Source: a virus. From it: a DNA stretch of 64,000 nt. The notes beneath the pieces are model-generated. The model had not been told where the DNA came from. It searched no databases and saw nothing but the letters and a program-made list of their open reading frames with translations. Position numbers and translations under genes: made by a program. Within the stretch, counting starts at the first letter, position 1; every line of letters begins with the position of its first letter. Of the stretch, positions 45,953 to 63,082 are shown in pieces. The stretch lies in the IMG/VR virus record IMGVR_UViG_3300042304_001125, positions 38,160 through 102,159 of that record. One strand, given 5' to 3'.

Positions 45953-46369
45953 TTATTCTTTTCTTTCTCCTTTGTGAGGATCTATTCGATCTAAGATCTT
46001 ATTTAAGTCCCCTATATGGATAAAGCCAGACATCGAAGCGTTCTTAAGAGCACTTATAAGCTGAAGTAGAATGAAAGGTACGATAATGGTTTCAGATAAC
46101 CAACTAGTTCCTGCAAAGCCTCTTTCGACCATCAGGATAACAGTTAGGAACATTACCCATACTATTGTTCTTTGTAGTACTCTAACAGCTTTAAAGGTCT
46201 TAAAACCTTCTCTCTTGATTCCAGCAATGATGCCAAAAAATCCATCTACAAACACCACAGCAATTAGAGCAAGGTACTGCTCAAAGTTACCCATTGTCAG
46301 CTCTAGAAAATAAGAGCATCCGAATGAAAGTGTGGTGGCGATAGACAAAAATATGGCTGTTGGTTTCAT
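45953..46369 (-). CDS. phage holin-like membrane protein, 138 aa
   Basis: Four hydrophobic segments (about 5-25, 33-50, 68-85, 92-108). LALIAVVFVDGFFGIIAGIK and the LISALKNASMSG end match holins of Bacteroidota phages (Phage_holin_4 class). The stop of the endolysin gene overlaps its ATG by one base (TAATG), the usual holin/endolysin linkage. It would form the inner-membrane hole for release of lysozyme. Confidence 0.8.
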   Translation of the reverse strand: MKPTAIFLSIATTLSFGCSYFLELTMGNFEQYLALIAVVFVDGFFGIIAGIKREGFKTFKAVRVLQRTIVWVMFLTVILMVERGFAGTSWLSETIIVPFILLQLISALKNASMSGFIHIGDLNKILDRIDPHKGERKE

Positions 46370-46980
46370 TACTTCACGTATTCGTAGTACTTCTTAGTCT
46401 TGGCATTTCTGTCTTCAAGTCCGTGAGTACCGCCGTTGATGCGCTTGGTCAGTTCCAGGATAGCTGCATCGTTGATGCCCTTATCACAGATAGTCCATAG
46501 CTTATTTCTTTCAAAGAAAAACATAGCTGATTCAAAAGCGTATTTAGTAGCAACCGTATCAGGGTTAGTCAAGACCTCGTCATTGCCTAAGTACTTTGCA
46601 AATGCTTCGTAGTTGGCTTTACCAGTCAACTGAAGAGCTCCTCTGCCTCTGAACTTGTATCCATCCCCTGATGCTTCGGCTCCGTTGCCCATCCTGTCGG
46701 CGTAGACTCGGTTTGCAATCTTTTCAGGCTGGCGGGCGTAAGACTCTTCGAGGTTACCGGGGAAGTACTTGCCGAAGATACCTTGCAGGCCTTGGGCGGA
46801 GTAGTTTAGGTTCTCTGAAAATGCTTTAAAGCCTCCTGTTTCGTGGGCTGTTTGAGCGAAGAAGTGTGCAGCTCTAACTGGAGTCAACTTATAAAACTCC
46901 ATTGCCTTCTTCATTGTTCCGGGACCAAAAGCGCCATCAGCGGCTATGCCCATCTTCTCTTGTAAACTTTTTAAGCTCAT
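46369..46980 (-). CDS. endolysin, GH19 chitinase-like lysozyme with N-terminal PG-binding start, 203 aa
   Basis: Residues 1-30 look like a short peptidoglycan-binding-type repeat (LQEKMGIAADGAFGPGTMKK). The rest is a GH19 fold: AHETGGFKAFSENLNY gives the catalytic glutamates E47 and E56, followed by YADRMGNG and YKFRGRGALQLTGKANYEAF. No signal peptide, so it depends on a holin. Cleaves the glycan chain of peptidoglycan. Confidence 0.9.
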   Translation of the reverse strand: MSLKSLQEKMGIAADGAFGPGTMKKAMEFYKLTPVRAAHFFAQTAHETGGFKAFSENLNYSAQGLQGIFGKYFPGNLEESYARQPEKIANRVYADRMGNGAEASGDGYKFRGRGALQLTGKANYEAFAKYLGNDEVLTNPDTVATKYAFESAMFFFERNKLWTICDKGINDAAILELTKRINGGTHGLEDRNAKTKKYYEYVK

Positions 46981-47742: not shown

Positions 47743-48738
47743 TTAGTATTGTAACGTGGCTTGGTTAGAGTATCCAGGCGATAATAAATAGAAGTTGCTT
47801 ATACCTCCTGAAGTAGGAGTAAAGGTAAAGTTAGATTGCAAGCCAGGTATTGAACCCATTAGGTTTGAAGAACCGCTATTAAGGCTAGTCCATTGAGCAT
47901 TTGTAAAAAGCAATGTGCTTTTAGTAAAAGGTGCTCCGTTAATTCTATCAGCTATAATGCAAATATCGGCAGTAGTAATCTTTCCTTCAAGGTTTAAATC
48001 GTACTTGTGATAGTGGAAGGGTCTTAAGGTAACTTTCTGAGTTACAACATCACCCACTCCTTCAAAATCTGCAGAAGTAAGATTAGAAGTTACAGTAGGA
48101 ACTACTACTTCGATATACCACTCAACGGAAGGATTGGTGGGTTGGGAGAAAGAATACTGCCCATTTAAATTAGTGACTGATGTGGCTTGAATAGTCCAGG
48201 CAGTAGTAGTAACTATGTATTCAAACTCTAAAACATAGGGCAAGTTTACATTGTTAGGTAGGTCATTCCATTTTCCATTACCGACAAACTGAACGTAGTC
48301 TTCATTACCTGCGTTGTTTGGCTCTCCAGGGTTCCAAGAAGTGTAAGAGTAAGCTTCACCGGTAACCCATCTCCATACTCCTTCATTTACTTCATCGGTT
48401 AATCCTATCCAACCCGATGGCCATAACCCAAATATAAAGTTATTTTCAGCCTGCGTGGTGACTGTTACTAGATGTCCACCCATGTTGTCACAGGCAGCTT
48501 TGGCTGCTGACCAAAATGCTGAACCTGTTGACCTGTAGTAGGAATGACCGTTGTAGTTCTGCTGATTTGTAAAACCTGTAATGACTGGGGTGACTCTTTT
48601 ATAAAGGTTGACTGTTACTCCTGGAACTCCTATATTGCCTTCGGTCCTTATAGCACCCGAGTGAGTAAAGGTCTGAGAGAGACCTAGTAACTGTACCAGG
48701 AATACAAAAGCTGAAGTGATAAGAACCTTAGAAGTCAT
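47743..48738 (-). CDS. secreted C-type lectin protein with dockerin-like element, 331 aa
   Basis: Signal peptide (residues about 1-22). Around 60-175 there is a C-type lectin domain: WSAAKAACDNMGGHLVTVTT, SGWIGLTDEVNEGVWRWVTG, then EPNNAGNED with the EPN motif (139-141) and WND (157-159), which in animal lectins bind calcium and mannose-type sugars. A dockerin-like segment (DLNLEGKITTADICIIADRI) lies near 252-272. A short N-terminal beta domain (EGNIGVPGVTVNLYKR) precedes the lectin. Phage origin and surface role are inferred. Confidence 0.85.
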   Translation of the reverse strand: MTSKVLITSAFVFLVQLLGLSQTFTHSGAIRTEGNIGVPGVTVNLYKRVTPVITGFTNQQNYNGHSYYRSTGSAFWSAAKAACDNMGGHLVTVTTQAENNFIFGLWPSGWIGLTDEVNEGVWRWVTGEAYSYTSWNPGEPNNAGNEDYVQFVGNGKWNDLPNNVNLPYVLEFEYIVTTTAWTIQATSVTNLNGQYSFSQPTNPSVEWYIEVVVPTVTSNLTSADFEGVGDVVTQKVTLRPFHYHKYDLNLEGKITTADICIIADRINGAPFTKSTLLFTNAQWTSLNSGSSNLMGSIPGLQSNFTFTPTSGGISNFYLLSPGYSNQATLQY

Positions 48739-49546
48739 AATTAGCGCCTATTGAAACGATATAAGGCGTGGTTTTGCTGTATCCATTCTCTATATCAGAT
48801 ATATCATAAGTATAACTAGTTCTAAACTTCGTAGCAAATGCAAATACATCAGTAACATTGTATTGAATAGTAGTACCGAAGTAAGTAGTCAAGTTAGTTC
48901 TATTCCAAAACCAGATATCTAAATAATCTTCCGAGTCCTCTAAATGTTTAAAGTGGGTTCTAAGAGATGACAACATAAAGATCTCAGGTCTTGCCACCCA
49001 TCTTCCTGCTTGAAACTCTTTCATTCCTAAGAGCATGACACTGAACTTAGTCTGGAAGCCTGCCGGGATGTAAGTATCAAGGAATTGAAACCCGTCCCAG
49101 CTATTATCCTTCACAAACAAAGTGTACCCTAGCTTGTAGCTACTCTTCTGGTAAGTCTGATTAAGGAAAGGAGTAACTGAAATTGTATTCACTCCTACAT
49201 CACTCCCTCCTATCGTGAGGCTGTATGTGTTGGTTCTAAGCAGGCCGTTAGGGAATTCTTTCTCTCTGATGTAGTTGTAGCCGAACTTAGTAAAATTAAA
49301 TGAAGGAGTCCTTGAAAGGAAGAACCCGTTGGTGTGATTCTTATTCTTAAGCTGGTAGGCGAGATTATAGCTGAAGATACTAAACTGACCTAGGAACCCG
49401 AAGGATAGGCTTGAACTACTAATGATGTCGTTATCAAGATCAACGTACTGAATTGAAGTCCACTCCGAGACTGATTCAGAGCCCTCTTGGGTAGTCTGGG
49501 CAAAGACATTGAAAGGTATTAAGATGAGTAGTAAAAATTTTTTCAT
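48728..49546 (-). CDS. probable outer-membrane beta-barrel protein, 272 aa
   Basis: Clear signal peptide (MKKFLLLILIPFNVFAQ), alternating aromatic/hydrophobic strands throughout, and a C-terminal aromatic residue (GANYDF) typical of barrels inserted by BamA. No annotated family. Overlaps the lectin gene by 11 bp and the 515 aa gene by 4 bp, so made together with them. Confidence 0.8.
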   Translation of the reverse strand: MKKFLLLILIPFNVFAQTTQEGSESVSEWTSIQYVDLDNDIISSSSLSFGFLGQFSIFSYNLAYQLKNKNHTNGFFLSRTPSFNFTKFGYNYIREKEFPNGLLRTNTYSLTIGGSDVGVNTISVTPFLNQTYQKSSYKLGYTLFVKDNSWDGFQFLDTYIPAGFQTKFSVMLLGMKEFQAGRWVARPEIFMLSSLRTHFKHLEDSEDYLDIWFWNRTNLTTYFGTTIQYNVTDVFAFATKFRTSYTYDISDIENGYSKTTPYIVSIGANYDF

Positions 49547-51090
49547 AACAGTATTTTTGTTCCTGTTGATATCTGGTAATTAAGTATTTCTGCATTCCAT
49601 TGATAAGCTCCTGAGAATGAAATACTCCATTTGAACTTATCAGTTAATTTAAAATCTATGTTAGCTAGAGGTACTAGTAGCATTCCTGAACTGTACCACT
49701 GACCTTGGTAGTAGAAGATATAAGGTGAATATACGCCCAACAGCATTACGTTTCCACCTATTGATTTTCCTCCTTTAAAGTTTGTAAATCCTCCTCCGAC
49801 TATGGACCAGTTCCGGAACCAGCTCTTCCCCAGCTGCCCGGCAGTAAAATTAGTACCCAACATCATTGTAGCAGGTCCTGCTTTTTGAGCTGCTAGAGCT
49901 GTGGTTGTATTAAACCAATCGGTCTTAAAGTTAGTCATCACCGAATTGGAGAATACCCCCATAAACCCTTTAGCTTTATAAGAACCATATAGAGTAGTAT
50001 TCAGAACATTCTCACCGGTAGTGTAATTCAGATTAACTCCTTTGATAAAGTTTTGCTTGGTATTGACATGGGTGATGGAGGAGTTGAACCTAAAATTATC
50101 CTGACCCGTGTCCCTGATGTTGCCGGAGTTTCTGATGGCGACAAAGTCACCGGAGCCTATGAGAGCTCCTCTACCTACTTTCTCTTGCCTGCTTTTTTGC
50201 TTTTGACCTCCGCCGCCGCTTTTACCACCACCATTGCCATTTGACGAGCTTTCAGACTCCCCACCTGATGCTGAGGTTGTGTTTTCTTGCCCACCGACTG
50301 CTCCTGATTCCGTACCACCGCCCTCAGTCGAGCCTCCTCCTCCTGAAGATGGAATAGATCCTCCTCCGCCTTCACCCTGACCGGAGGAAGGTTGACCTGA
50401 TCCCGAACCACCCGATCCCGAACCGCCTGAGCCTGAGCCGCCTGAAGAACCAGAGCCTCCAGTTCCTGAACCTCCTCCGGAACCTCCGCCAGAACCCGAG
50501 CCAGAGCCACCGCCACCAGTACTACCGCTACCGCCACTCCCACCAGTGCTCCCTCCACTGCCTGTAGAGCCTGTTCCGGAGCTACCGGAGCTAGACCCAG
50601 AACTACTACCGCCATTCCCAGAACTACTAGAGCTGCTACCAGAAGAATTCGAACCATTGTCATTATTATTTGTATTTGAAGTTCCACCACCTGCTACACC
50701 TCCGCCCGGAATAGCGGATGATCCTATGTTCCCGCCTAGACTGGCGGCGATACTAACTATGCCTGATACGTTATTGACCGTATTAGTGCCAATAGCTGCA
50801 TTTGATCCTGTTGTGATAGTACCCCCGCCTCCAGCGCAGGGGTTACTTCCTGCAGGCACACTTGCATTAACACTTTGTACCCAAAGCTCGAAGGCTCCGG
50901 CCTGTAGCTGGGCTGCTGTAAAAGTATTGTATTGTCCGGCATAAAAGAGCGTTACAGAGCCTGATGGCTGGGTAATGGTAACAGAGTTAAGTATTCCTGT
51001 GCAAGGATCGGTGTAGGTATAGATATACTGACTATACCCTTTGAACCATGCAATTAGAAATATTAACGCTATTTTCCATTTACCATCCAT
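49543..51090 (-). CDS. surface/outer-membrane protein with long Ser/Gly linker, 515 aa
   Basis: Signal peptide (IALIFLIAWFKGYSQ), an N-terminal part with one disulphide-like Cys pair, then a Ser/Gly-rich linker of about 150 residues (about 135-300). The last 200 residues resemble a beta-barrel (alternating strands ending in STGTKILL). The linker is GC-rich and repeats GGSG-like units. Layout suggests an exposed stalk in front of an outer-membrane anchor. No known family. Confidence 0.75.
   Translation of the reverse strand: MDGKWKIALIFLIAWFKGYSQYIYTYTDPCTGILNSVTITQPSGSVTLFYAGQYNTFTAAQLQAGAFELWVQSVNASVPAGSNPCAGGGGTITTGSNAAIGTNTVNNVSGIVSIAASLGGNIGSSAIPGGGVAGGGTSNTNNNDNGSNSSGSSSSSSGNGGSSSGSSSGSSGTGSTGSGGSTGGSGGSGSTGGGGSGSGSGGGSGGGSGTGGSGSSGGSGSGGSGSGGSGSGQPSSGQGEGGGGSIPSSGGGGSTEGGGTESGAVGGQENTTSASGGESESSSNGNGGGKSGGGGQKQKSRQEKVGRGALIGSGDFVAIRNSGNIRDTGQDNFRFNSSITHVNTKQNFIKGVNLNYTTGENVLNTTLYGSYKAKGFMGVFSNSVMTNFKTDWFNTTTALAAQKAGPATMMLGTNFTAGQLGKSWFRNWSIVGGGFTNFKGGKSIGGNVMLLGVYSPYIFYYQGQWYSSGMLLVPLANIDFKLTDKFKWSISFSGAYQWNAEILNYQISTGTKILL
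50165..50690. repeat. low-complexity Ser/Gly-coding repeat
   Basis: Imperfect CCACCGCC/GAACCTCC-type repeats encode the Ser/Gly linker of the 515 aa protein. Its GC content is higher than flanking DNA. Overlapping frames on both strands are artefacts of this composition. Confidence 0.7.
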
Positions 51091-51820
51091 ACTGCTCCAT
51101 GCGCTTGACGAGGTTTACAGTCGCAACCTCTAACGCACGTTGTGTAGCAACGCCAACTGTTGAACCATCAAACCCCATCTGAGGATTCTTAAAGAAGCCC
51201 TCACCAACTTGGGTTGAAGTTCCTTGACCTGAAGCCACAATATACTGTCCGTTATCCACATTTACCATTCGGATCTGAATGCCGATGATAGTAGTATTGG
51301 TCTTATTTGTTTTACCTTTATCGTAAGTCTCAGCATATGATACAGAGAAGTCATAGATCTCAGCATACACAACATACTTAGGAACGGCAATGCCTTCCAT
51401 TGTAAGTTGAGTCTTGCCATTTGAAAGTCCGTTTAGTTCAGTCTCCCAAGCATCAAGCATCTGATTCTGAATTGCTTCTTTCTCTTCAGCGTAAGTAAAG
51501 CGACCGGTCTGTTCGAAGTTCTCAATGATTCTATTCGATACACCCATACCCACTCTCTTGTCTCTTAACTCAGGGAACATATCCCAAAGCTCTTTATTGA
51601 CATTAAGCTTAGATAGCTGCACTACCTGCTTCTGACCGGTAAAGGCTGGAAGAGTATTTAGAGCTTCTGCTTTCTCAAACTCGGCTGTATACTGTTGTAC
51701 ACCTACAGAAGATTTACATGAGGTCGCTAACGTACCTACAACTAACATTCCACCTACAACCAGAAGTACCCCTATAGGAGCGAAAATCTTTTCCATAATC
51801 TCGTCTCTTCTAGTTCTCAT
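51080..51820 (-). CDS. CsgG-like outer-membrane lipoprotein, 246 aa
   Basis: N-terminal signal with lipobox ending LATSC (Cys at about residue 35 from this ATG, nearer from a second start at MEKIFAPIGV). The body resembles CsgG/HfaB: VGMGVSNRIIENFEQTGRFT, VVYAEIYDFSVSY, IGIQIRMVNVDNGQYIVASG and GVATQRALEVATVNLVKRME. In bacteria CsgG is the outer-membrane export channel for curli. Here no CsgA/B is seen; a host-derived export role is inferred. Starts overlapping the previous stop. Confidence 0.75.
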   Translation of the reverse strand: MRTRRDEIMEKIFAPIGVLLVVGGMLVVGTLATSCKSSVGVQQYTAEFEKAEALNTLPAFTGQKQVVQLSKLNVNKELWDMFPELRDKRVGMGVSNRIIENFEQTGRFTYAEEKEAIQNQMLDAWETELNGLSNGKTQLTMEGIAVPKYVVYAEIYDFSVSYAETYDKGKTNKTNTTIIGIQIRMVNVDNGQYIVASGQGTSTQVGEGFFKNPQMGFDGSTVGVATQRALEVATVNLVKRMEQYGW

Positions 51821-52200
51821 TACTTACCGGCGTTCTGGTCTTCTCTCTGCTTTTTAAGGCGAGCCATTCTTTCGGCTGGAGTTTCTTTCTTCTCTTCAGC
51901 TGGAGCTGCTGGAGCTGGTGCTGCTGCTTGAGCTGGTACTTCACGAACAGTCTCTTTGATGATAGTAGTACCACCACCGGAGTTGTTCTGCTGCTGGGTA
52001 TTGTTGTTCTCAAGGTTAACGATAACTGGAGCCGGGGCAGGAGCTACCTGCTCAGTTTTAGTCTCCTCTTCATCCTCAATACCTAACAAGCTATTAATGT
52101 GAGTAGTAGCCCAGATACCAATACCTGTTACAGCTGTACCTAATACTCCTAGGACTGTCTTCTTTACGCTAGACATTCCGCCTTCTTGTTCTTCACTCAT
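51820..52200 (-). CDS. membrane-anchored Pro/Ala-rich protein, 126 aa
   Basis: One membrane helix near residues 18-36 (GVLGTAVTGIGIWATTHINS) followed by a disordered Pro/Ala/Gln region (VAPAPAPVIVNLENNNTQ, AAAPAPAAPAEEKKE). The shape resembles TonB-type periplasm-spanning proteins without the C-terminal fold. It might bridge inner and outer membrane for the CsgG partner. Function inferred from layout. Confidence 0.65.
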   Translation of the reverse strand: MSEEQEGGMSSVKKTVLGVLGTAVTGIGIWATTHINSLLGIEDEEETKTEQVAPAPAPVIVNLENNNTQQQNNSGGGTTIIKETVREVPAQAAAPAPAAPAEEKKETPAERMARLKKQREDQNAGK

Positions 52201-52205
52201 GACTT

Positions 52206-54140
52206 TTAGAATTTAATTAATTTGTAAACTTTATCTCTGTCGTTCATAACCAGTCTTACGAAGTAAGTACCTTTTGGTAAATCACCCAGGTAGATTCCTT
52301 TGTATTGGAAGCCTAGATCTGTTTGATTAATTTTTTCAGCCTTTAGGATTTGACCTTGCATGTTTGCAATCACCATAGTTAGAGGCTGCTTATCTTCTGT
52401 GTAGAATTCTGCTATAGCCCATCCACCGGTCATATCCGATACTGGGTTAGGGTATACGTGGAAGCCGTAGATCTTCTCCGTTGTAATAGGATCTAGAGTA
52501 GCTCTTCCGTTGATGATCGAACCATCGTTAAGAGAAGGCTTAACTGATAGGTCATCTGCTTTTTCGTTACCAGCTGCTTTGTCGAAGATTCTTAGAGGAG
52601 CTGAAGTCCATCCTAGGATTGATTTAACTCTAAAGCGGAATGTAAATGCATTGCTCATTGCTTCTAGCACTGCAGGGTTCATCTTATCTTCGTGACCGGC
52701 CCAGAACACTCTGCCTTTCTCTACACTAATAAGACTGGTCCATTTAGCTGCTACTGGTCCTGCTTCGATTGAGATGAACTCAAAGATGTTGGTGTCGTAT
52801 TCAAAGCCCATCTGAGCTGCTCCAATCTTGTTACCGAATGTGTACATAGTAACTGGAACGTCAACGAAGTTGTCTGCAGTAAGTACTAGCTTAGGGAATC
52901 TAAACTGAACTGTGTCAGGCTTGTTTGACATATAGACTGCTGGGTCTAGAACGTATTCTGTGATACCGCCTCCGGCTGGGTTGATCTTAGCAAGGATTGT
53001 TGCTGGATTGTTGTAGCCGGTTGTTGTAGCGTCACCAACTACGTAGATGTAAGGATTGATTGAGTCTAGACTATTAACAATAGTATCGATTGCGTATCTT
53101 CTAGGAGTAGTAGCCCAGTTAGGAGCTCCGGTAGCTAGAGTTGCAGGATCGTACTCACCAGGCCATAATGTTGCAACGTTGTTTACTCCTGTAAATAATC
53201 CACTCCAGGTAGTTGACTGAAGAGCTAATCTATTGAATACGGCAAAGCCGTCAGAGATAGTTACTGTCTGTGATTGGTTGATATCACCTTCGTACCACTC
53301 TATACCTGCTAAAGTATCTTGGCCGGTAACGTGGTTGGCTAATTTATAGGCGTCTGTGATTGAGATTGCACCACCGTCAGACATTGAGTCAGTCTGAGCA
53401 GCGATCTTAAGATGCCAGTAGTTTGTATCAAGAGGGTGAGTAAACTCTACTAGACCTGCTGCATTAGTTGAATCAGAAGAGATTGGCTGCCAAGTTGCAA
53501 GAGGAGTTGACTTGAGTCTCTTTGCAGCTGAGAACCAAACTCCTTGAGCTGGTGATCCGTCTGCGTTCTTAGCTCTGACTGGGAAAGTCATCGGAGTCAT
53601 TTGGAATGCACCTCCGTAGTTGAATAAGGTTAGAGTAACGTCGGTACCGCTACCAACTGTTGCAAGGTTGGTGTAGGAGCTGGCTCCTGTGATGGCCATT
53701 GAGTTAGTAACTCCTTTGTAGTTAGATCCGTGATTAAGTCTTAACTTAAACATCGCACCATCATTCCAGTCATAGGAAGTATTGGTACCGGTGTAAGTTG
53801 CTACAACGTTGATATACCCGCTAGCATTTACATCGAAGTAAGATCCGTACTTATCTGATACCGACTGTGCTGTTGGACCCCAGAACATGGTAGCTCCAGA
53901 GAATTTAGTATTGTCGTAAAACAATCTAAACTGGACAGCTTTAACTGGTGTTGCAGTTGGGTTAGCAAAGTGTACGTAGATATCGGTGTAGGTGGCCGGG
54001 TGATTAGCCAGAGTAAACAAAGTATCTACTAGAATGTAAGGAGTAGATGAGTTAGGAGCTGGTAGGATCTCATTAGCACCATTCTGTGCTTGAGCTGTTA
54101 ATCCTAAAATTGCAGCGAGTACTACAAAGATTTTTTTCAT
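52206..54140 (-). CDS. T9SS-sorted protein with cohesin- and dockerin-like domains, 644 aa
   Basis: Signal peptide at MKKIFVVLAAILGLTAQA (start at 54140). Two cohesin-type beta domains (about 30-170 and 420-530; VQFRLFYDNTKFSGA and QMGFEYDTNIFEFISI). Between them a dockerin-like GDINQSQTVTISDGFAVFNR. The C-terminus (about 560-644) is a T9SS type A sorting domain: HVYPNPVSD, VIANMQGQIL, LPKGTYFVRLVMNDRDKVYK. So it should be exported through the outer membrane and anchored. Start of the envelope run. Confidence 0.85.
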   Translation of the reverse strand: MKKIFVVLAAILGLTAQAQNGANEILPAPNSSTPYILVDTLFTLANHPATYTDIYVHFANPTATPVKAVQFRLFYDNTKFSGATMFWGPTAQSVSDKYGSYFDVNASGYINVVATYTGTNTSYDWNDGAMFKLRLNHGSNYKGVTNSMAITGASSYTNLATVGSGTDVTLTLFNYGGAFQMTPMTFPVRAKNADGSPAQGVWFSAAKRLKSTPLATWQPISSDSTNAAGLVEFTHPLDTNYWHLKIAAQTDSMSDGGAISITDAYKLANHVTGQDTLAGIEWYEGDINQSQTVTISDGFAVFNRLALQSTTWSGLFTGVNNVATLWPGEYDPATLATGAPNWATTPRRYAIDTIVNSLDSINPYIYVVGDATTTGYNNPATILAKINPAGGGITEYVLDPAVYMSNKPDTVQFRFPKLVLTADNFVDVPVTMYTFGNKIGAAQMGFEYDTNIFEFISIEAGPVAAKWTSLISVEKGRVFWAGHEDKMNPAVLEAMSNAFTFRFRVKSILGWTSAPLRIFDKAAGNEKADDLSVKPSLNDGSIINGRATLDPITTEKIYGFHVYPNPVSDMTGGWAIAEFYTEDKQPLTMVIANMQGQILKAEKINQTDLGFQYKGIYLGDLPKGTYFVRLVMNDRDKVYKLIKF

Positions 54141-54195
54141 AGAGGGTCGTAAGTTATGTTTAAATTCCAAAAACAATTACCTACAACAATTCCAT

Positions 54196-54204
54196 TATAA
54201 ATAT
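54196..54204 (-). promoter_or_regulatory. late promoter motif variant ATATTTATA
   Basis: 55 bp upstream of the T9SS protein start. Directly follows a terminator-like hairpin (54215-54231). Confidence 0.45.
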
Positions 54205-54214
54205 AAACAGGAAG

Positions 54215-54231
54215 AGGGACCAGAAGTCCCT
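54215..54231 (-). terminator. terminator-like hairpin AGGGAC-TTCTG-GTCCCT
   Basis: Six-pair stem after the 33 aa gene, followed by CTTCCTGTTT; separates it from the envelope unit. Confidence 0.5.
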
Positions 54232-54256
54232 TTCCTAATTAAAGTATACCTTACGC

Positions 54257-54358
54257 TTACTCTTCTTCTTCAGAGTGGTCGTTGTAGATGGATTCTTGCA
54301 TTCCATCGTACATCCATACCGGCTCGTTGAAGTGAACGCTAATCTGTACTGCTTTCAT
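54257..54358 (-). CDS. hypothetical acidic peptide, 33 aa
   Basis: MKAVQISVHFNEPVWMYDGM start, ends in EEEE. Overlaps the zinc-ribbon gene by 20 bp and has a GGGGGGAG purine stretch just upstream of ATG, an unusually strong ribosome site for this genome. Confidence 0.5.
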   Translation of the reverse strand: MKAVQISVHFNEPVWMYDGMQESIYNDHSEEEE

Positions 54359-54581
54359 CTCCCCCCAGGTCTTTTAGTTCTTTAGGCAAGAACTCTGTAT
54401 TGACGTGTCCGCATGACTTGCATGCAAAGACTGGGATTGGGAGGTAGGATGTTTGACCTGTGCCGGTTAGTAGCCCTGATACCTTGCGGATGTGTAGTGC
54501 CTGCTCGAAGTAAATACCTCCGCACTTCTCACACTCTACCGGAAGGGTTTGATCCAGACTTACATTTAAGTTCTGATTCAC
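54339..54581 (-). CDS. zinc-ribbon protein, 80 aa
   Basis: CEKCGGIYFEQALHIRKVSG and PVFACKSCGHVNTEFL give a C-x2-C ... C-x2-C site. Small phage zinc-ribbon proteins of this type accompany virion genes in T4-like phages (recollection). ATG overlaps the previous stop by one base. Role unknown. Confidence 0.7.
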   Translation of the reverse strand: MNQNLNVSLDQTLPVECEKCGGIYFEQALHIRKVSGLLTGTGQTSYLPIPVFACKSCGHVNTEFLPKELKDLGGDESSTD

Positions 54582-54877
54582 TACTTACTAGCTTTGCGAC
54601 CTTTAGTAGCAGTTCTCTTAGGAGCAGGCTTAGCTACAGCTGCAGTCTCTGCAGGAGCATTTTTTTTTGCAACTGGTTTACGACCACGGCGTGGCTTACC
54701 TGCAGCAGCTTCAGCAACGTCAGAAGCTTGTTTAGCTACCTCTTTTGCAGCGGCAACTACATCTTTTACTTCTTCCTTTACTCTTTCAACTCTCTCTTGA
54801 ACTTGCTCGACTTTCTCAACAATCTTCTCGTCAATAGTAGTCTTACCTAACAACCAATTCCAAAAACGTTTTAACAT
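54581..54877 (-). CDS. basic, histone-H1-like protein with coiled-coil start, 98 aa
   Basis: N-terminal helix (VEQVQERVERVKEEVKDVVA) followed by a Lys/Ala/Pro-rich tail with AT-hook-like RRGRKPVAKK and KRTATKGRKASK. It may bind DNA non-specifically during packaging or act as a virion-associated protein. A late-motif variant lies upstream. Confidence 0.7.
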   Translation of the reverse strand: MLKRFWNWLLGKTTIDEKIVEKVEQVQERVERVKEEVKDVVAAAKEVAKQASDVAEAAAGKPRRGRKPVAKKNAPAETAAVAKPAPKRTATKGRKASK

Positions 54878-54897
54878 AGTTTTGACTTTTTATTTTA

Positions 54898-54906
54898 TAT
54901 AAATAT
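54898..54906 (-). promoter_or_regulatory. late promoter motif variant ATATTTATA
   Basis: 20 bp upstream of the basic 98 aa protein, in an AT-rich gap after the tail-fibre gene. Confidence 0.45.
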
Positions 54907-54937
54907 ATAAAGATTTACTTTTCGTTCAAACTTTTTT

Positions 54938-56728
54938 TTAAAGAGCATACCAAGTAGTTCCATCCCACATATAAGGTCTAGGAGGAACACTGCTGGATAC
55001 TGCAAATGAGCCTACAGGTGCTCCTATCGGAAGTACAGAAGTTGGCTGAAGTGTAAGTACCTTTCCTAAGGTTATGAATATATCAGTTGCAAAGCTAGCA
55101 CTATCCGGGCTATTAACTCTAAGCGATCCAGCTCCGTTAACAACTACTTCGTAGATAAATGGTCCACCTGAAGGACCGTCTGAGATTCTAAACTCACTTG
55201 CACCTGTTCCAGGCTGTATTCTAAGCTCATTATTAGCTCCGAGTGTGATAACTCTATCTCCTGTTAATGTTCCGTTTGAATTGTAGAGGTTAGGAGCATG
55301 TGAAGCACTAGCTACTGTAAGTTTTGAAGCAGTTACGTAACCTAATAGACCTTGTGTGCCTGAAATACCGGTTAAGTCATACCCTGCAACATACCCATAA
55401 TTAGCTTCACTGAGGTTATTAAAAGTTACTCTATCAGATCCACTAACAGTAAAGAAAGCGTTAGTATTATTAAATTTTAGAGCATTAGTACTAAGGTTAA
55501 CTTCTCTTGCTGCTGTTAAAGTACCGTCTGAATTATATAAATTAGGAGCAAACGAAGCACTAGGTACAGATACTAGAGTAATACTTTCTGTAGTTCCGTC
55601 TCCTTGGTTGAAAGTAATGACGTTGCTGCTTATTGAAGACGAGTAGTAGAATGAACCTGTCCTAGCATTTGTAACGTAAGAACCTGTAGCAGCTTCTAAG
55701 CTACCAAGTCTAGTGTTGGCTGAGCCTGAGAAGCTATTTAATGCATTAATACTTATTTGAGCTGAGCCTGAGAAAATATTTAATCCGGTAATGCTTGTTT
55801 GAGCTGAGCCTGAGAAAGTACTTAATCCGGTAATGCTTGTTTGAGCTGAGCCTGTAAAGTTGTTAAGAGCTGTAATGTCTGTTGTTGATGCAGATCCTGT
55901 ATTGATTGTAACAGTTACGGCTGATCCTACGTTAGTAGCAGTAACAGCATTACCTACGAAATCAAAGGTTCTTGCATTCTCAGTTAACACAGTACCTTCA
56001 TTAGATGCTGTGATAGCGAAACCACCACCACCACCTCCGGCAAGTCCGGATAGGTCTAGGTTGTAGGTATTGGTACTACTATGTAATGTTAATGCGGAAG
56101 TTGTACTGTTGTAAGAACCGCTGTATAGGAATGAACCTGTTTGGGTAGCATAAACGTAGGAATCTCTAGTTAAATCTAATGTTATACAGTAGTCATCAGA
56201 CGCAGTAGTTCCAATAACTGCGTTAACCAATACGTTAATTGAACCTACTCCAAAGCCTCCTGGAACTTGGTTAACTGTACCCTTAATATAGTTTTTATCA
56301 TCTACGTAGACTATCATTTTATCTCCAACTTTGTAGGCTAGATTTTCACCGAACAGGCCATTTAAAGTACTGCCTGTAGGAACAAATTGGAGATTAAGAA
56401 TACCTGCGTTGTATCCATCGTACGTAAAGCCGTTAACAATACATCTATCAAATAAATGATTTACAGTAGTGCCGCCACCGCTTCCACTTCCAAACTCTAT
56501 CCAGTTAGAACCAGTATTCCAGTTAGATACACTGCTTCCTTTAAACCCGTAAAACTTACCGGATCCAGAATCAAATACTATCGTACCCACATTCCTCTTA
56601 TCGGAAGGTATACTTCCAGTATTGTTAATAGAAGCTAGAGGGTATGCAGTTCCTTTTAAAGAAGTAGCATCAACTAACGGGTAGTTAGTGTTGTTATTTT
56701 CTAGAATGTCAGGAAAAAATATAGCCAT
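54938..56728 (-). CDS. tail-fibre-like structural protein, 596 aa
   Basis: MAIFFPDILENNNTNYPLVD start, Gly/Ser/Thr/Asn-rich with phage-fibre type strands, and repeated SGSAQTSITGLNIF-like units near residues 285-330 (DNA repeat at 55724-55862). The C-terminus (RPYMWDGTTWYAL) is an ending seen in phage tail fibres. Probably the receptor-binding or distal fibre subunit. 4 bp from the gene at 56733. Confidence 0.8.
   Translation of the reverse strand: MAIFFPDILENNNTNYPLVDATSLKGTAYPLASINNTGSIPSDKRNVGTIVFDSGSGKFYGFKGSSVSNWNTGSNWIEFGSGSGGGTTVNHLFDRCIVNGFTYDGYNAGILNLQFVPTGSTLNGLFGENLAYKVGDKMIVYVDDKNYIKGTVNQVPGGFGVGSINVLVNAVIGTTASDDYCITLDLTRDSYVYATQTGSFLYSGSYNSTTSALTLHSSTNTYNLDLSGLAGGGGGGFAITASNEGTVLTENARTFDFVGNAVTATNVGSAVTVTINTGSASTTDITALNNFTGSAQTSITGLSTFSGSAQTSITGLNIFSGSAQISINALNSFSGSANTRLGSLEAATGSYVTNARTGSFYYSSSISSNVITFNQGDGTTESITLVSVPSASFAPNLYNSDGTLTAAREVNLSTNALKFNNTNAFFTVSGSDRVTFNNLSEANYGYVAGYDLTGISGTQGLLGYVTASKLTVASASHAPNLYNSNGTLTGDRVITLGANNELRIQPGTGASEFRISDGPSGGPFIYEVVVNGAGSLRVNSPDSASFATDIFITLGKVLTLQPTSVLPIGAPVGSFAVSSSVPPRPYMWDGTTWYAL
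55724..55862. repeat. three to four imperfect 48-bp direct repeats in the fibre gene
   Basis: Blocks of GTTTGAGCTGAGCCTGAGAA with conserved flanks (AATCCGGTAATGCTT) encode the SGSAQTSITGLN repeats. Repeat-number change could alter fibre length. Confidence 0.7.
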
Positions 56729-56732
56729 GATC

Positions 56733-57755
56733 TTAAGATATTGTTAATGTTACTCCTGAACCAAATGCACCTTTTTGTTTTGATTGATATACTCTAAATG
56801 AAGTTGAGGAACTATAAGCGTTTGCCACGGTAAAGTCTCCTACTTTATCGAATGCTGTTATTACCGATAATGCCCCATCTTTAATTACATTTGATAAATC
56901 ACCATAAGACGCTGGGTAGATTATGTAAGTGTATTTAGTAGGGTCGTTATTATTAGCATCACAGGTTGGAGTCCAGGCTTTAGTTGTGGTGAGGGTACTA
57001 GTCACAGTATCAGAGTTGATAACACTCTGAGCTGAGGCGTTATCTGTAATTGGAGTAGAGCTAGCAGCTAAATAGTTTCTCCAGTAGAAAGCAAAGCCTG
57101 TATTTGTAGATTGAGTATCGGCAGTAGTCTGACTCTTAGTATTGACAATAAACGTAACATTGCCCGCTGTAGTTGCTCTATTAATCGTCAGAGCAGATCC
57201 TAATGTAAAGGCGTTAGTTCCTGAAAGAGTGTTAGAAAAATACGCCTGGAGTAGTCCTGAATCTGCTCCAGAACCTGTAATGCTAGCAGATACTGGATAG
57301 TTTCCATCTGGGCTATCCACGGTTGCTAGGAATGAAGCTGAGTTACAGGTAAAAGAGTTACCTACATCTCTAGTGGCTGTTGATCTAGTAGTACCGTCAA
57401 GTTTAATCAGTAAGCTACTAATAGTAGGCTCTATGTAAGTTATCAGCATTGATCTTAGTAGAGCTTCAATAGTGGAGCCGGCAGTAAATAAGTCACCTGG
57501 GGAGACCCCTCCTACTGTCTGGTTTGAAGTTAAATTTTGAACTAGAGTAGTTCCACCACCGACGCCACCGCCTGAACCTGTATTGACGGTTAAGTTAAAT
57601 GTGCTACCATCCCCCTTAGTAAACGTAAGCACGTTACTGGAGACGGAACCTGTTGCTATAAGTGAGTTAAGGCTGCTGGACAGGTATGTAAAGTTGCCAT
57701 CAAGTTCTGAGTAGGTTAGTTCAGAACCTTTAACAAGTCTTAGAGTTAGTGGCAT
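56733..57755 (-). CDS. tail-fibre/adhesin-type structural protein, 340 aa
   Basis: MPLTLRLVKGSELTYSELDG NFTYL opening is the conserved N-terminal attachment segment of many phage fibre proteins (short anchor then Ser-rich strands). The start at 57755 follows a CTATTTATA motif; a longer frame upstream overlaps this site. The rest is Thr/Ser-rich beta sequence. First gene of a two-gene fibre unit. Confidence 0.8.
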   Translation of the reverse strand: MPLTLRLVKGSELTYSELDGNFTYLSSSLNSLIATGSVSSNVLTFTKGDGSTFNLTVNTGSGGGVGGGTTLVQNLTSNQTVGGVSPGDLFTAGSTIEALLRSMLITYIEPTISSLLIKLDGTTRSTATRDVGNSFTCNSASFLATVDSPDGNYPVSASITGSGADSGLLQAYFSNTLSGTNAFTLGSALTINRATTAGNVTFIVNTKSQTTADTQSTNTGFAFYWRNYLAASSTPITDNASAQSVINSDTVTSTLTTTKAWTPTCDANNNDPTKYTYIIYPASYGDLSNVIKDGALSVITAFDKVGDFTVANAYSSSTSFRVYQSKQKGAFGSGVTLTIS

Positions 57756-57773
57756 ACTACGAGAGGTTTTACA

Positions 57774-57782
57774 TATAAATAG
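57774..57782 (-). promoter_or_regulatory. late promoter motif CTATTTATA before fibre genes
   Basis: 18 bp upstream of the fibre gene start. Confidence 0.6.
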
Positions 57783-57801
57783 CACCTTCGTAGCAGAGTA
57801 C

Positions 57802-58305
57802 CTATTTGAACTTAGGAACGCTTACTTGCTTGTACCCGTACTTCTTTTCAAGTACTAGGTAAAGCTCCTTTACACTATCGCCATCCAGGTTCATAATCTC
57901 TTCTTCTACTTTTTCTCGAGATAAGCCGTAGTTCTTTTTACACTCCTTATATATACCTTCCAACCGCTTGGCTTCTTCTTTAGTATGATCTTCAAGCAGG
58001 CGTTTCCACCGAGCCATATTCAGACTCTGAGATTCATTAAATCCAACGATATCAACTTTATTTATATAGGCATGACGGAGTTTATGCTCTACTAACTCGG
58101 CCTCGTACTTATAATGAGGAAAGTCAAAGTCACCGTTCATAACCTTCTCCTTGAAATGAGCTTGAGGAAACAAAGGCTTCTTCTTAGCTACATAACCTCT
58201 CCACCACATAAAACGATCGTAAGGCTTCTTGTAGCAGTTCTCAGCAAAGTAACTCTCCAACCACTCTACCGAGTGAACGGGCTTAAACGGACATAGATCT
58301 AACAT
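57802..58305 (-). CDS. hypothetical protein, 167 aa, candidate leaderless gene
   Basis: MLDLCPFKPVHSVEWLESYF start, helical and basic with Trp-rich FMWWRGYVAKKKPLFPQAHF. The -7 box (58308-58316) is immediately followed by the ATG, so the transcript probably begins at or near the start codon. No domain recognised. Confidence 0.7.
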   Translation of the reverse strand: MLDLCPFKPVHSVEWLESYFAENCYKKPYDRFMWWRGYVAKKKPLFPQAHFKEKVMNGDFDFPHYKYEAELVEHKLRHAYINKVDIVGFNESQSLNMARWKRLLEDHTKEEAKRLEGIYKECKKNYGLSREKVEEEIMNLDGDSVKELYLVLEKKYGYKQVSVPKFK

Positions 58306-58307
58306 AC

Positions 58308-58340
58308 CTAAAGATAGTAACTTTTATTTAAAAAAGCAAC
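58308..58340 (-). promoter_or_regulatory. promoter, GTTG-N20-TATCTTTAG, abutting a start codon
   Basis: -33 GTTG 58337-58340, -7 58308-58316, ATG at 58303-58305. The GTTG abuts the stop of the T9SS type B protein gene (58341). Confidence 0.75.
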
Positions 58341-59906
58341 TTATCTTAGGACTGTAACTGTAAAGCTGTAAGACTGATCTGGGGTGTCTAATACTCCAAA
58401 ATAAACTCCATCTGCTACATTTCCTCCATCCCAATCATTCTTATAATCTGGATTGGTGTAGACTATCTGCCCCCATCTATTCATAATACTTATACTGGCA
58501 GGACTGTGATTGCTTAGGTTCTTAATTACAAACAGATCGTTTTTGTTATCTCCGTTCGGAGTTACTACGTTCGGGATAAGAATAGGTTGCGTAGGGATAA
58601 CAATAGGTTCTTCTCCGTTCCTAATATCGTCAACTGGACCGATAGGGTCTGGAGGTGGTGGAGGTGGACAAGGTCCTACCTTGATTAGGATTGTATCAAA
58701 CTCGTCCATCTCAATACCGCACTTATTCATTAAAGTATTTCCATCGTTTCCTTTCTTAGAGTAGAGGTAGTACTCTCCTGCGTAACTAAAGGGCATGAGC
58801 ATTACAATACGTACTGAGTCGGTCTCGTAATTGACATCGACATTAGACCAGATTTTTTTGATTGCAACAGGTTGGCTGGTCTGTGTCCGGGTCATTCTAA
58901 AATCAACATCGTTAATTGAATACCCATCTAAGGCAATGTGAAACTTAAGTCCAAAGGCTGTATCCCCGCATGCTACTTCTTTATATTTTAGTCCTGTAAT
59001 TGTATCAACCGGGTATTGAGTAGGGTCGTATTTTACGCCTTGCATCGCTACTGCATTGCAATTATATGCAATTGATATCATCATATCTCTTGAGGCTGAA
59101 CCTACCTTAGTCCATACTCCCCAAAGCGAATCATACCTGTATTCTTCAATCAATACCGACAGTGCATCAACCTCCTGAGTTGTAGGATAGAAAGAGATCT
59201 GCCCGGTCTGAGGATTGATATTGAAGTAGGTTGAGGATACAGGTTGATTCTTATTGAATCCAAAGTCAAACGGAATGTTAGTCTGGTTTGGGTAAGCTCC
59301 TTCCCGGCAATTGATCAGAGAGTATGCCACCGAGTCTCCATCGTACTCGACCGAGCTTTGCTTCCAGTTGAAAGGATTAGCTACACAGAATGCCCGAACA
59401 GGCTCCGATACAAAGATCGGAGATGAGTTCTGTCCATTAAGGTTATTGAGTAGAGCATCAAAGTAGAAGCCGTCGGTTCCAGTTCCATTTGAGTTTGAGA
59501 TATTAGTTACTCCAGGAGGACGGCAGCAATTTGAATACCAGAATACAAAGTCACCGCAGTTGCCCGGCAGTACTACATACCCGGTGTACCGGTAAACTTC
59601 CAGAGTCTTCACACCAGGTCCCGGGTTTACGCAATCAAATAGGGTTGGGGATACAACCCCGCTTCCGGCTGTTAGGTTGACAGTAACGTTGGTGTTAGAA
59701 TAACATCCTGAGGATATTGTTACTGTCTCAGTAGTGGGCATTGCTATACCGGTAACATCTCTATAGACTCTCAGAATGATTTTATAATGACGGGCGATTC
59801 CGGTAGAATCTCCAATGTAGCGGTATTGTATATCACCACCCGCTAAGTGCGATGCTGTTGAGACAAAGCTCATCAACAACGCTAAAACAACGTACAACTT
59901 TTTCAT
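58341..59906 (-). CDS. T9SS type B (gliding_CTERM) sorted protein, 521 aa
   Basis: Signal peptide (MKKLYVVLALLMSFVSTAS). N-terminal HLAGGDIQYRYIGDSTG then YKIILRVYRDVTG and Cys-rich stretches are typical of large gliding-motility-associated surface proteins of Bacteroidota. The C-terminus (about 440-521) has VVTPNGDNKNDLFVIKN, SISIMNRWGQIVYTNPDY and WDGGNVADGVYF, the type B sorting domain. Probably host-derived, exported through T9SS. Start at 59906 rather than a longer frame crossing a terminator. Confidence 0.88.
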   Translation of the reverse strand: MKKLYVVLALLMSFVSTASHLAGGDIQYRYIGDSTGIARHYKIILRVYRDVTGIAMPTTETVTISSGCYSNTNVTVNLTAGSGVVSPTLFDCVNPGPGVKTLEVYRYTGYVVLPGNCGDFVFWYSNCCRPPGVTNISNSNGTGTDGFYFDALLNNLNGQNSSPIFVSEPVRAFCVANPFNWKQSSVEYDGDSVAYSLINCREGAYPNQTNIPFDFGFNKNQPVSSTYFNINPQTGQISFYPTTQEVDALSVLIEEYRYDSLWGVWTKVGSASRDMMISIAYNCNAVAMQGVKYDPTQYPVDTITGLKYKEVACGDTAFGLKFHIALDGYSINDVDFRMTRTQTSQPVAIKKIWSNVDVNYETDSVRIVMLMPFSYAGEYYLYSKKGNDGNTLMNKCGIEMDEFDTILIKVGPCPPPPPPDPIGPVDDIRNGEEPIVIPTQPILIPNVVTPNGDNKNDLFVIKNLSNHSPASISIMNRWGQIVYTNPDYKNDWDGGNVADGVYFGVLDTPDQSYSFTVTVLR

Positions 59907-59910
59907 AGTA

Positions 59911-59943
59911 ATAAATATAAGAAGCCCCTTTCGGGGCTCCAAA
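59911..59943 (-). promoter_or_regulatory. promoter, TTTG-N20-TATATTTAT
   Basis: -33 TTTG 59940-59943, -7 TATATTTAT 59911-59919, with the upstream gene's terminator in the spacer. The segment AATAAATAT here also resembles the late motif. Confidence 0.5.
59921..59940 (-). terminator. intrinsic terminator after the 516 aa gene
   Basis: GGAGCCCC-GAAA-GGGGCTTC stem (seven pairs) with a short U-rich tail; nested between -33 and -7 boxes of the next gene. Confidence 0.65.
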
Positions 59944-59962
59944 CATTTACTCAGAAATTTTA

Positions 59963-61513
59963 CTATTGTTTAATAACTCTTATATTTTTAACTGTATAAA
60001 CTCCCTTAGGAAGGTATCCTAAATCGTTCCAGCCTTTTTCAAGCTTGCCAACTACTCTACCGGTGTTGTCAAAGATCAGAGCTTGCTCTTGAGAGTAGAG
60101 CTGATCAGCAACCGGGTTAGGGTATAGGCTGATTGGTGAGTTAAATTCTGCAACTGAGATAGTATTGCCGATTAGGTTTGTGTCGTTAAAGCTAGCTCCT
60201 GTGTCTAGTCCGCTAGTAGCTGATGGACGATAGTCAGGCTGTAGGTAGCTGTAAGGAGTGGTAAACAATCCAGTAGAAGCTGCTAGAGTATCATTGGAAG
60301 TAAAATACCAAGCACCGGCATTAAAAGAAGGATTAGTTCCTCTGAGGATGAATTTGCCGCTGCAGCCAGCAATCAGATTATTTTGGAATACTAACCTATT
60401 CTGTAGTGCATTTGTTTCTGTAGAAGTTCCGTCAATATGAATACCGTCTTTAAAGTCTGTAAAGACTGAGTTGAAGATTTTCATTTCACTGTTCCGGCGA
60501 AGTCTCAAAGCTCTTCTAAACTTAGGATCGACTGTAGCCTGTAGGTTACCTCTTAGTGGTCCGATAGCAGTTACGTTAGAGAATGTGGCAGCTGTCTTAG
60601 GTCCGTTGTTAGAACCGGCGCCGTCATTATCACATTCAAACCCTTCTGAGGTTGAGCCTGATGACTGGTCAGCAATAAAAGGATCTCTAACAATTAAAGC
60701 AAATTGAACTTTACCTCGGTATCCAAAATCGCAGTCCATGTCATCATCCAGGTTGCGGTACGATACCAAGTGCTTACAATTCACAGTACCACCAAACCAT
60801 TCAAAAGCGTCATCATTAGTAAATGAAACTTGAACATAATCAACTACTGTCTTACTTCCTACTGAACCGAAAGTTAATCCATTAATCTCTTTGTCAGGCA
60901 TGTAAGCATATCCGCCGAACTCGATTCTAACGTATTTTAAAACACCTGAGCTATCCTGGTCGTTATTACCTCCATACTCAGTATTAGCTGAAGTAGGTAA
61001 GCCTTCGATGTTACCGATGCCTGCATTAGATCCTGCTGCTGTGTTGGGTGGGATGTTATTAACAGCCTCTCCTAGAATAACAATTCCTCCCCAGTCACCG
61101 ATTGTTCGTTGGCCAGGAACTGCACTAGAAGTAAATACGATTGGTTGAGTAGCTGTACCTTCAGCATATAATGTTCCCTGCTTAGTTACAATCAGAGCCG
61201 ATCCTGCAGTGTTCTTATCAAAAAGAATTACTGTACCGGGTTGGATAGTAAGCGAGCTCTTCAAGTATACCGGACCTTGAACTAAGTAAACATTGCTGCT
61301 TGTCCAAGTTAGACTACTAAGTAGTTCTCCTGAAACTGTCTGGGTGTGGATCGGGTAGACTGTGTTTTGAGCATCCCAGTTAGTCCATCCGTCAGTCCAT
61401 TGGGTGGTAGGAGCTGGTGCAAAAGCACCTCTATAACTTGTTGGGGTCCAGAAAGAGGTCTGGCCGAATAACGTAACTGCCGAAAGAGCTACAAGGGTAA
61501 ATAAGTGTTTCAT
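59963..61513 (-). CDS. T9SS type A sorted beta-helix protein, 516 aa
   Basis: Signal peptide (MKHLFTLVALSAVTLFGQT). The central part (about 90-400) is a right-handed beta-helix family common in Bacteroidota: RTIGDWGGIVILGEAVN, LKYVRIEFGGYAYMPDKEIN, NDDAFEWFGGTVNCKHLVSY, DDDMDCDFGYRGKVQFALI. The C-terminus has SLYPNPVADQL, ALIFDNTGRVVGKL and LPKGVYTVKN, a T9SS type A sorting domain. In bacteria such proteins often pair with TonB-dependent receptors; none is seen here. Confidence 0.88.
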   Translation of the reverse strand: MKHLFTLVALSAVTLFGQTSFWTPTSYRGAFAPAPTTQWTDGWTNWDAQNTVYPIHTQTVSGELLSSLTWTSSNVYLVQGPVYLKSSLTIQPGTVILFDKNTAGSALIVTKQGTLYAEGTATQPIVFTSSAVPGQRTIGDWGGIVILGEAVNNIPPNTAAGSNAGIGNIEGLPTSANTEYGGNNDQDSSGVLKYVRIEFGGYAYMPDKEINGLTFGSVGSKTVVDYVQVSFTNDDAFEWFGGTVNCKHLVSYRNLDDDMDCDFGYRGKVQFALIVRDPFIADQSSGSTSEGFECDNDGAGSNNGPKTAATFSNVTAIGPLRGNLQATVDPKFRRALRLRRNSEMKIFNSVFTDFKDGIHIDGTSTETNALQNRLVFQNNLIAGCSGKFILRGTNPSFNAGAWYFTSNDTLAASTGLFTTPYSYLQPDYRPSATSGLDTGASFNDTNLIGNTISVAEFNSPISLYPNPVADQLYSQEQALIFDNTGRVVGKLEKGWNDLGYLPKGVYTVKNIRVIKQ

Positions 61514-61602
61514 AAATGTAAACGTAATTGTTTATTAATAACTACGTTTAAGATAGGCTACCGAGTTTAGATCAGTATTAAGCCTTTATTAAGAAACCTA
61601 AG

Positions 61603-61676
61603 TGGGCCTGCCAGGGCTCGAACCTGGGACCTGGGGATTATGAGTCCCTCGCTCTAACCGACTGAGCTACAGGCCC
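61603..61676 (-). tRNA. tRNA-Met or tRNA-Ile2 (anticodon CAT)
   Basis: Acceptor GGGCCTG/CAGGCCC, complete cloverleaf with loop CTCATAA. CAT could be methionine (elongator or initiator) or, if modified, isoleucine; sequence does not decide. Confidence 0.92.
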
Positions 61677-61681
61677 GATGG

Positions 61682-61766
61682 CGGAGGCTCAGGGATTCGA
61701 ACCCCGGGACCTGTTACAGTCAATAGTTTTCAAGACTACCGCAATCGACCACTCTGCCAAACCTCC
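61682..61766 (-). tRNA. tRNA-Ser (anticodon TGA)
   Basis: Class II with long variable arm; anticodon loop CTTGAAA. Acceptor GGAGGTT pairs with AGCCTCC. Confidence 0.92.
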
Positions 61767-61902
61767 ATTGTAAAAGAAACAGGAACAACTTTATCAGGAA
61801 TCTAACAAATGCTTAACACACCAATAAGAGAGCTACTAAGTGTGTACCCTTGCGTCGCTGCTCTCCCAGCTAGTTGTTCTACGCTTCCTCTGTTTCTGTA
61901 GT

Positions 61903-61983
61903 TGGAAGGAACAGATTCGAACTGCTGTACCCGTAAGGGAGCAGATTTACAGTCTGCCGGTTTTAACCACTCACCCACCTTCC
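61903..61983 (-). tRNA. tRNA-Tyr (anticodon GTA)
   Basis: Class II bacterial Tyr; anticodon loop CTGTAAA, long variable arm CTCCCTTACGGGTACA. Confidence 0.92.
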
Positions 61984-61989
61984 AGTATG

Positions 61990-63073: not shown

Positions 63074-63082
63074 ATATTATGG

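Follow-up and report, generated by a model that had tools for sequence, protein, structure and literature searches.

Why should a phage encode proteins whose C-termini resemble the sorting domains of a bacterial secretion system? The question is raised by three minus-strand genes in a 64,000-nucleotide stretch of viral DNA (hereafter, the window), which comprises bases 38160-102159, i.e., the end, of the 102159-base (102 kb) IMG/VR record IMGVR_UViG_3300042304_001125, assigned to a myovirus and taken to be from a phage of Bacteroidota. An earlier note on this DNA had proposed that all three proteins carry signal peptides and C-terminal domains addressing them to the type IX secretion system (T9SS), type A at 52206 and 59963 and type B at 58341. 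The three open frames are all present as listed (52206-54176, 58341-59942, and 59963-61513) and are referred to here as coh, chu, and bh, respectively. The best explanation as a whole, which we regard as fairly probable, is that the phage carries a block of exported proteins, some of them with a sorting domain for the T9SS of the host, most plausibly to remodel the cell surface.

Sorting domains of coh, chu, and bh

When curated models were applied, the proposed assignment held for two of the three proteins. The C-terminus of coh exceeded the cut-offs of TIGR04183 (33.8 bits, cut-off 23) and PF18962 (28.7, cut-off 27), and that of chu exceeded those of TIGR04131 (40.2 bits, cut-off 35) and PF13585 (68, cut-off 27), so that types A and B, respectively, stand, whereas bh remained below the cut-off. 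The coh protein additionally contains a cohesin domain (PF00963, 38.9 bits, cut-off 24.1). Because 13 of 14 named control genomes also matched TIGR04183 at E ≤1 when whole records were searched (one of them over the cut-off), only over-cut-off matches were counted. Structure prediction, suggested in the earlier note as a check, agrees with the assignment of coh: the predicted fold of residues 570-656 matches 8qb1, the solved C-terminal domain of mirolase from Tannerella forsythia, which we take to be a T9SS domain (Z 9.2, 2.2 Å, 77 residues aligned, chain of 88), and residues 417-550 are predicted to be cohesin-like (Z about 9). With this aligner, in which unrelated folds reach Z 7-8, a Z of 9 is to be read as support, not proof, for the fold matches.

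Of 78 loci with bacterial relatives of bh, 59 are complete; their C-termini, 55 of which have a [YFL][PS]NP motif within the last 82 residues, were used to build an independent model. When the record's 100 open frames of ≥100 amino acids (aa) were ranked with this model, coh, chu, and bh, represented by their last 90 residues, came first, second, and third (40.1, 17.1, and 14.6 bits), with the next frame at 7.6 bits. Not one of 1000 shuffles reached the score of the native tail for any of the three. The C-terminus of bh was also compared with a profile of the C-termini of 15 bacterial relatives (hhalign probability 87.4, E 3.7e-6). Thus, chance look-alikes are rejected for coh and chu on the strength of the curated cut-offs and the shuffles, and are unlikely for bh given the shuffles and hhalign. 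The end of bh can be described as a short, sub-threshold, putative type A-like domain, a reading supported by the shuffles, the profile comparison, and the bacterial relatives.

To go by inspection and a hydropathy scan of the N-termini, signal peptides appear to be present on all three proteins, as had been claimed: their N-termini rank 2, 6, and 10 among the 100 open frames. Of the ten N-termini in this set that most resemble signal peptides, seven fall within 47743-61513, and this region is regarded as a block of exported proteins. The TTG starts listed for the frames at 52206 and 58341 probably lie 12 codons ahead of the true starts, because the majority of aligned relatives start at a matching internal ATG (54140 and 59906).

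No SprA was found in the 16 phage records searched, a search within which no positive control matched; in a separate search, which served as the positive control, SprA exceeded the cut-off in all seven bacterial genomes with a bh relative. Export would thus need the T9SS of the host. Taken together, T9SS export of coh and chu is very likely, to judge from their sequences, and that of bh is likely as well, with clearly less assurance.

The block, its lineage, and its phage genome

Relatives of coh were found at 16 loci in 16 viral contigs with 15 metagenome numbers (57-100% identity), and a tblastn search of phage records added four records of Immutovirus immuto (approx. 29% identity); a near-DNA search of phage records gave no match. 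TIGR04183 was over its cut-off in 17 of the 18 records searched, and coh keeps its tag in all 17 of the other records carrying it; the eighteenth, G008, has chu and bh and no coh within its available stretch. These 17 records amount to approx. 11 distinct coh sequences, five (that of the window included) being one virus and others repeats. In all 17, the three genes after coh are identical in kind and order, and coh with these three genes (encoding a 126 aa protein, a CsgG-like protein, and a Gly/Ser-rich, strand-rich protein; Table 1) forms a core of the block that is kept lineage-wide. The coh tag is evolving under constraint: dS could be computed for 24 of 45 pairs, many of them close to saturation, and the ratio of nonsynonymous to synonymous substitution rates (dN/dS) in these 24 was 0-0.28, or 0-0.16 in the seven with dS <1.

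Table 1. Positions of the export genes, their sorting domains, and neighbouring genes in the window
Feature	Position	Strand	Basis or remark
GH19 family protein, probable endolysin, downstream of export genes	46369..46980	-	PF00182, 36.2 bits (cut-off 25.5)
Exported C-type lectin protein	47743..48738	-	PF00059, 61 bits
Exported protein, family-less (no Pfam over cut-off)	48728..49546	-	hydropathy rank 7/100
Exported protein, Gly/Ser-rich middle, strand-rich C-terminal part	49543..51090	-	synteny; N-terminal hydropathy rank 8/100
CsgG-like protein	51080..51820	-	Foldseek match to CsgG 4uv2; synteny
126 aa protein, hydrophobic N-terminal stretch	51820..52200	-	next after coh in all coh records; hydropathy rank 13/100
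coh: cohesin-domain protein, signal peptide, T9SS type A sorting domain	52206..54140	-	start moved to internal ATG; PF00963, TIGR04183, PF18962
coh type A sorting domain, residues 574-656 of listed frame	52209..52457	-	TIGR04183 match 574-655; fold like 8qb1
Two fibre-like genes without signal peptides, between chu and coh	54938-56728, 56733-57785		by sight
chu: surface protein, signal peptide, T9SS type B sorting domain	58341..59906	-	start moved to internal ATG; TIGR04131, PF13585
chu type B sorting domain	58344..58580	-	PF13585 match 455-522
bh: relative of Bacteroidota T9SS surface proteins, signal peptide, short type A-like C-terminus	59963..61513	-	
bh short type A-like C-terminus, residues 463-516	59966..60127	-	TIGR04183 sub-threshold; hhalign

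The three tagged proteins differ in their bacterial relatives. Of 296 genomes searched, which belong to the order of G022 (here taken to be Flavobacteriales because its members include G018 and G021, titled Flavobacteriales and Cryomorphaceae), seven had matches to coh; all ten matches listed lie in residues 564-656, i.e., in the tag, and the body of coh, without any match in these genomes, was found here in phages only. Matches to chu occurred in 213 of the 296 genomes, the best with 49% identity over residues 20-425; among 12 bacterial chu relatives examined, 11 were complete, and all 11 have, by sight, type B-like tails. For relatives of bh, the figures are 199 of 225 candidate stretches, 80 retained, and 78 loci. 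Among these, the highest identities (63-64%) belonged to genomes titled Flavobacteriales, Owenweeksia, Cryomorphaceae, or Bacteroidetes, and at the best-ranked loci bh is 53-64% identical to bacterial proteins across residues 1-509 or parts thereof; such titles are depositors' labels, and those of two of the 78 loci (L071 and L075) name Actinobacteria, probably by mislabelling. Because bacterial bodies match chu and bh, but only the tag of coh, chu and bh, both of which resemble Flavobacteriales surface proteins, look captured from such hosts and coh does not. Both chu and bh are accessory parts of the block, missing from many relatives.

Within phages, chu had no match in phage records and bh had three partial, unannotated ones. 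Among the viral contigs, chu is present in six others as three distinct sequences, each with the type B domain over the cut-off (G008 and G010 included), and G014 encodes an additional type B protein of 689 aa. The YPNP end of bh occurs only in the virus of the window, including its four near-identical contigs. One of these contigs, G001 (IMGVR_UViG_3300042878_001497, 173 kb), is the same virus, with 99.5-100% protein identity across the export block.

Other C-termini were observed among relatives of bh. One lipoprotein-like relative (L018) has neither the YPNP end nor the 50 aa end found in several other contigs (see below). Furthermore, a C-terminus of 45-50 aa with the pattern YDWYG...LKGLYV...EKV, lacking a YPNP start, is common to proteins with different bodies: three close bh relatives (L007, L009, and L012) and, in G001, an exported protein of 310 aa (L116:3974-4906, equal to G001:58973-59905). 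This is possibly a cut-down ("mini") sorting domain. It beat 1000 of 1000 shuffles, albeit narrowly (8.8 vs. 8.3 and 11.9 vs. 9.9 bits); against bacterial type A ends, its hhalign probability was 0.3. In the 296 genomes, it gave nine weak matches, eight of which were taken on as loci; of these eight, five fall, by sight, within C-terminal T9SS-like ends and three do not.

A chimera with a host chromosome at 54-62 kb, which the earlier note had considered as a possible flaw, is not supported, and a phage-host chimera is rejected: gene order is the same in 16 IMG/VR contigs and in the isolate immuto, and G001 has phage genes upstream of the block. The record itself has strong matches to PHROG families for the portal (238 bits), terminase large subunit (174), major head protein (247), head maturation protease (170), and baseplate wedge (58). 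Upstream of bh, G001 encodes ribonucleotide reductase, thymidylate synthase, and GTP cyclohydrolase, together with DNA polymerase A and GroEL at a distance of 4.7-10 kb; beyond these, still in the upstream direction, is a gene for a tail sheath (G001:18498-20000). With structural genes on the record and replication genes upstream in G001, the tagged genes are part of a phage genome. Several further features of this genome were observed. Immediately upstream of bh are eight tRNA genes (61602-63334, minus strand). The GroEL-like chaperonin of G001 (L116:13546-15180; PF00118, 244 bits) is phage-encoded, and L115:10256-14689 of the same contig encodes a collagen-like protein of 1477 aa that contains GIQGTQG-type repeats and, by sight, resembles a fibre. 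The segment 19001-22000 of the window is low in G+C (approx. 0.33), contains few long open frames, and has a strongly negative GC skew, reaching -0.29.

The nearest cultured relative is Immutovirus immuto (NC_055915.1), whose isolate host is Flavobacterium sp. LMO8; the genus was described by Hoetzinger et al. in 2021, according to PMC12602537. Its gp013-gp018 form a homologous block with the gene order of the window (a lectin, coh, a protein of 103 aa, a CsgG-like protein, and a protein of 474 aa), the lectin relative (gp013) being directly upstream of coh. In contrast to the window, coh consists of two genes in immuto, gp014 without a tag and gp015 with cohesin and tag; each has its own signal-peptide-like start, the second lying one base past the first stop (L035:11598-13422). 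The tag scores 46.5 bits with TIGR04183 (cut-off 23), and gp015 also passes PF18962 and PF00963. Used as a query, the C-terminus of gp015 hit, beyond the four immuto records, seven records, all with E of at least 0.4. Neither chu nor bh was present in the 33 kb examined, and the whole record had no PF13585 match. The immuto block is annotated only as cohesin domain-containing or hypothetical.

Of the neighbouring exported proteins, the CsgG-like one is, by sight, a probable outer-membrane lipoprotein (ATSC motif). Its 12 best Foldseek matches are all chains of CsgG 4uv2 (E 1.3e-3 to 8.2e-3, none ≤0.001). By sequence, a CsgG identity found no support: the protein had no Pfam or PDB match, PF03783 being absent with E limits of 1 and of 10 and a PDB profile search to E 10 giving nothing, and a further search matched only records of immuto. 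By sight, the Gly/Ser-rich protein might be guessed to be an outer-membrane barrel.

What the exported proteins may do

If the C-terminal domains are functional, the phage would make coh, chu, and bh with signal peptides for Sec export, the host T9SS would recognise the C-terminal domains, and, as in established T9SS biology, it would carry the proteins across the outer membrane and then cut or anchor them. An infected cell would in this way wear adhesin- or scaffold-like surface proteins specified by the phage, and the sequences suggest that infected cells probably do wear phage-made surface proteins. The purpose could be remodelling of the infected-cell surface, e.g., by shielding receptors from other phages or by sticking cells together; the chance that this is the purpose is, in our view, a little short of even. 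Superinfection exclusion is perhaps the role. A more elaborate version, which we hold to be rather doubtful, is a dedicated surface-display module in which a phage-specific cohesin scaffold, delivered via the host T9SS, would act with a phage-encoded CsgG-like outer-membrane pore and the lectin to control who adsorbs or sticks. On this view, the split of coh in immuto would suggest a two-part form, with the untagged gp014 docking on the tagged cohesin gp015. A dockerin was considered in coh and rejected (PF00404, E 0.053, below the cut-off).

Known T9SSs anchor their type A cargo to a lipopolysaccharide. For this reason, a cluster of glycosyltransferases and NAD-dependent epimerases at 28689-44379, large for a phage, may matter to the mechanism; such Pfam matches were obtained for seven of ten proteins tested, and the cluster is possibly glycan-modifying.

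Several observations weigh against this proposal. The bh tag fails the curated cut-offs (TIGR04183, 16.5 bits against 23; PF18962, 18.2 against 27), and in five contigs of another lineage with close bh relatives (G003 and G005-G008), bh has a different, 50 aa end instead. The model of coh is poor overall (mean predicted local distance difference test (pLDDT) score 44.9), being confident only in part (71-90 by blocks from residue 591), and dN in the coh tag exceeds dN in the rest of coh in most pairs. The likeness to CsgG rests on a low-confidence fold model (pLDDT 41.8; template-modelling (TM) score about 0.3). Moreover, a T9SS in the host cell of this virus is itself inferred.

Other explanations were weighed against remodelling of the cell surface by host-exported proteins. 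The tagged proteins might serve the particles and not the cell: once exported, they would coat or bind released virions, or, as adhesins on the surface, keep progeny attached to host cells. The two fibre-like genes between chu and coh would suit such a role, as would the C-type lectin and the cohesin protein, which are binding modules; nonetheless, we judge it unlikely, because signal peptides and sorting domains would remove the proteins from the cytoplasm, where virions assemble, and no PHROG family matches coh, chu, or bh. It is still less likely that the block is an egress device, in which the outer membrane would be breached at a late stage by a CsgG-like pore together with its partners, and coh would be a T9SS-exported helper. 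A probable endolysin of the GH19 family is indeed encoded just downstream, and a lysis role has been proposed for the phage CsgGF of a marine methylophage (PMC9004378). However, the CsgG likeness is weak, the annotated endolysin of immuto is approx. 8 kb from the block (within the 33 kb examined), and there is no reason for a lysis helper to need a sorting domain.

The two remaining explanations concern where the genes come from. Both chu and bh might be passenger host genes, captured without a phage role, so that only coh matters, or not even coh. Their identity to Flavobacteriales proteins (63-64% for bh and up to 49% for chu) and their absence from many relatives speak for this, but their bodies show low dN/dS where dS is computable (0.11-0.20 for bh), and the coh body, unmatched in the host-order genomes, is nevertheless kept lineage-wide; we thus consider this explanation improbable. 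An artefact, i.e., a phage-host chimera or chance look-alikes of sorting domains, is scarcely credible. Only bh, which alone is sub-threshold, could be cited in its favour, against which stand the synteny across the 16 IMG/VR contigs and immuto, the position of DNA polymerase A and GroEL in G001, and the shuffle control; for coh and chu, this reading is refuted.

Comparison with known systems

The closest bacterial counterparts of the accessory proteins are Flavobacteriales T9SS surface proteins (L036-L041 and L125-L136), which, like phage bh and chu, have signal peptides together with a type A end or, by sight, a type B end, respectively. They differ in that bacterial chu relatives are approx. 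722-750 aa long, as compared with 521-533 aa in phages, and bacterial bh relatives have full-length tags. With regard to the neighbouring CsgG-like gene, the hosts of pelagimyophages and of the methylophage Melnitz are not known to have a T9SS. These phages encode CsgGF pores and thus, like the virus of the window, a CsgG-like outer-membrane protein, whereas in the window the likeness is by fold only and the partner genes differ (PMC9004378).

The earlier note held that phage genes built for T9SS export were not a described class; this was wrong, as two reports precede the present one. According to PMC7468147 (2020), Cryophage, a circular 76 kb Bacteroidetes phage, has three genes with T9SS type A sorting domains, encoding an endoglucanase, a GH39 protein, and a PA14 protein in hypervariable islands; it was proposed that these hijack the host's T9SS and serve in competition or in superinfection exclusion. 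Proteins containing T9SS sorting domains have also been reported beside crAss-like BACON genes in Bacteroidetes gut phage contigs, and in one instance the BACON protein carries the domain (PMC6949934). These, too, are phage proteins with sorting domains, but they involve BACON tandem repeats near head genes, and the available part of that report mentions no cohesin or CsgG-like neighbour. Among the open papers listed by our searches, we found nothing on T9SS tags in Immutovirus-like phages, on a phage type B tag, or on a link to a CsgG-like gene, and the available parts of PMC10013915, PMC7077304, and PMC12602537 add nothing on phage T9SS tags.

In contrast to Cryophage, compared here by description, the window comes from a myovirus with a syntenic, lineage-wide cohesin protein, type B cargo, and a CsgG-like neighbour. 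What is new is therefore the deep conservation, the synteny with a CsgG-like gene, the type B cargo, and a culturable system. In the more elaborate, rather doubtful version, a Flavobacterium-type myovirus lineage would give the infected cell a phage-designed surface. A phage T9SS tag can be more than the variable passenger that it is in Cryophage, namely a long-kept, syntenic feature of a lineage, and the question is tied to a cultured phage and host (immuto and Flavobacterium sp. LMO8), in which use of the T9SS for rebuilding the cell surface is directly testable.

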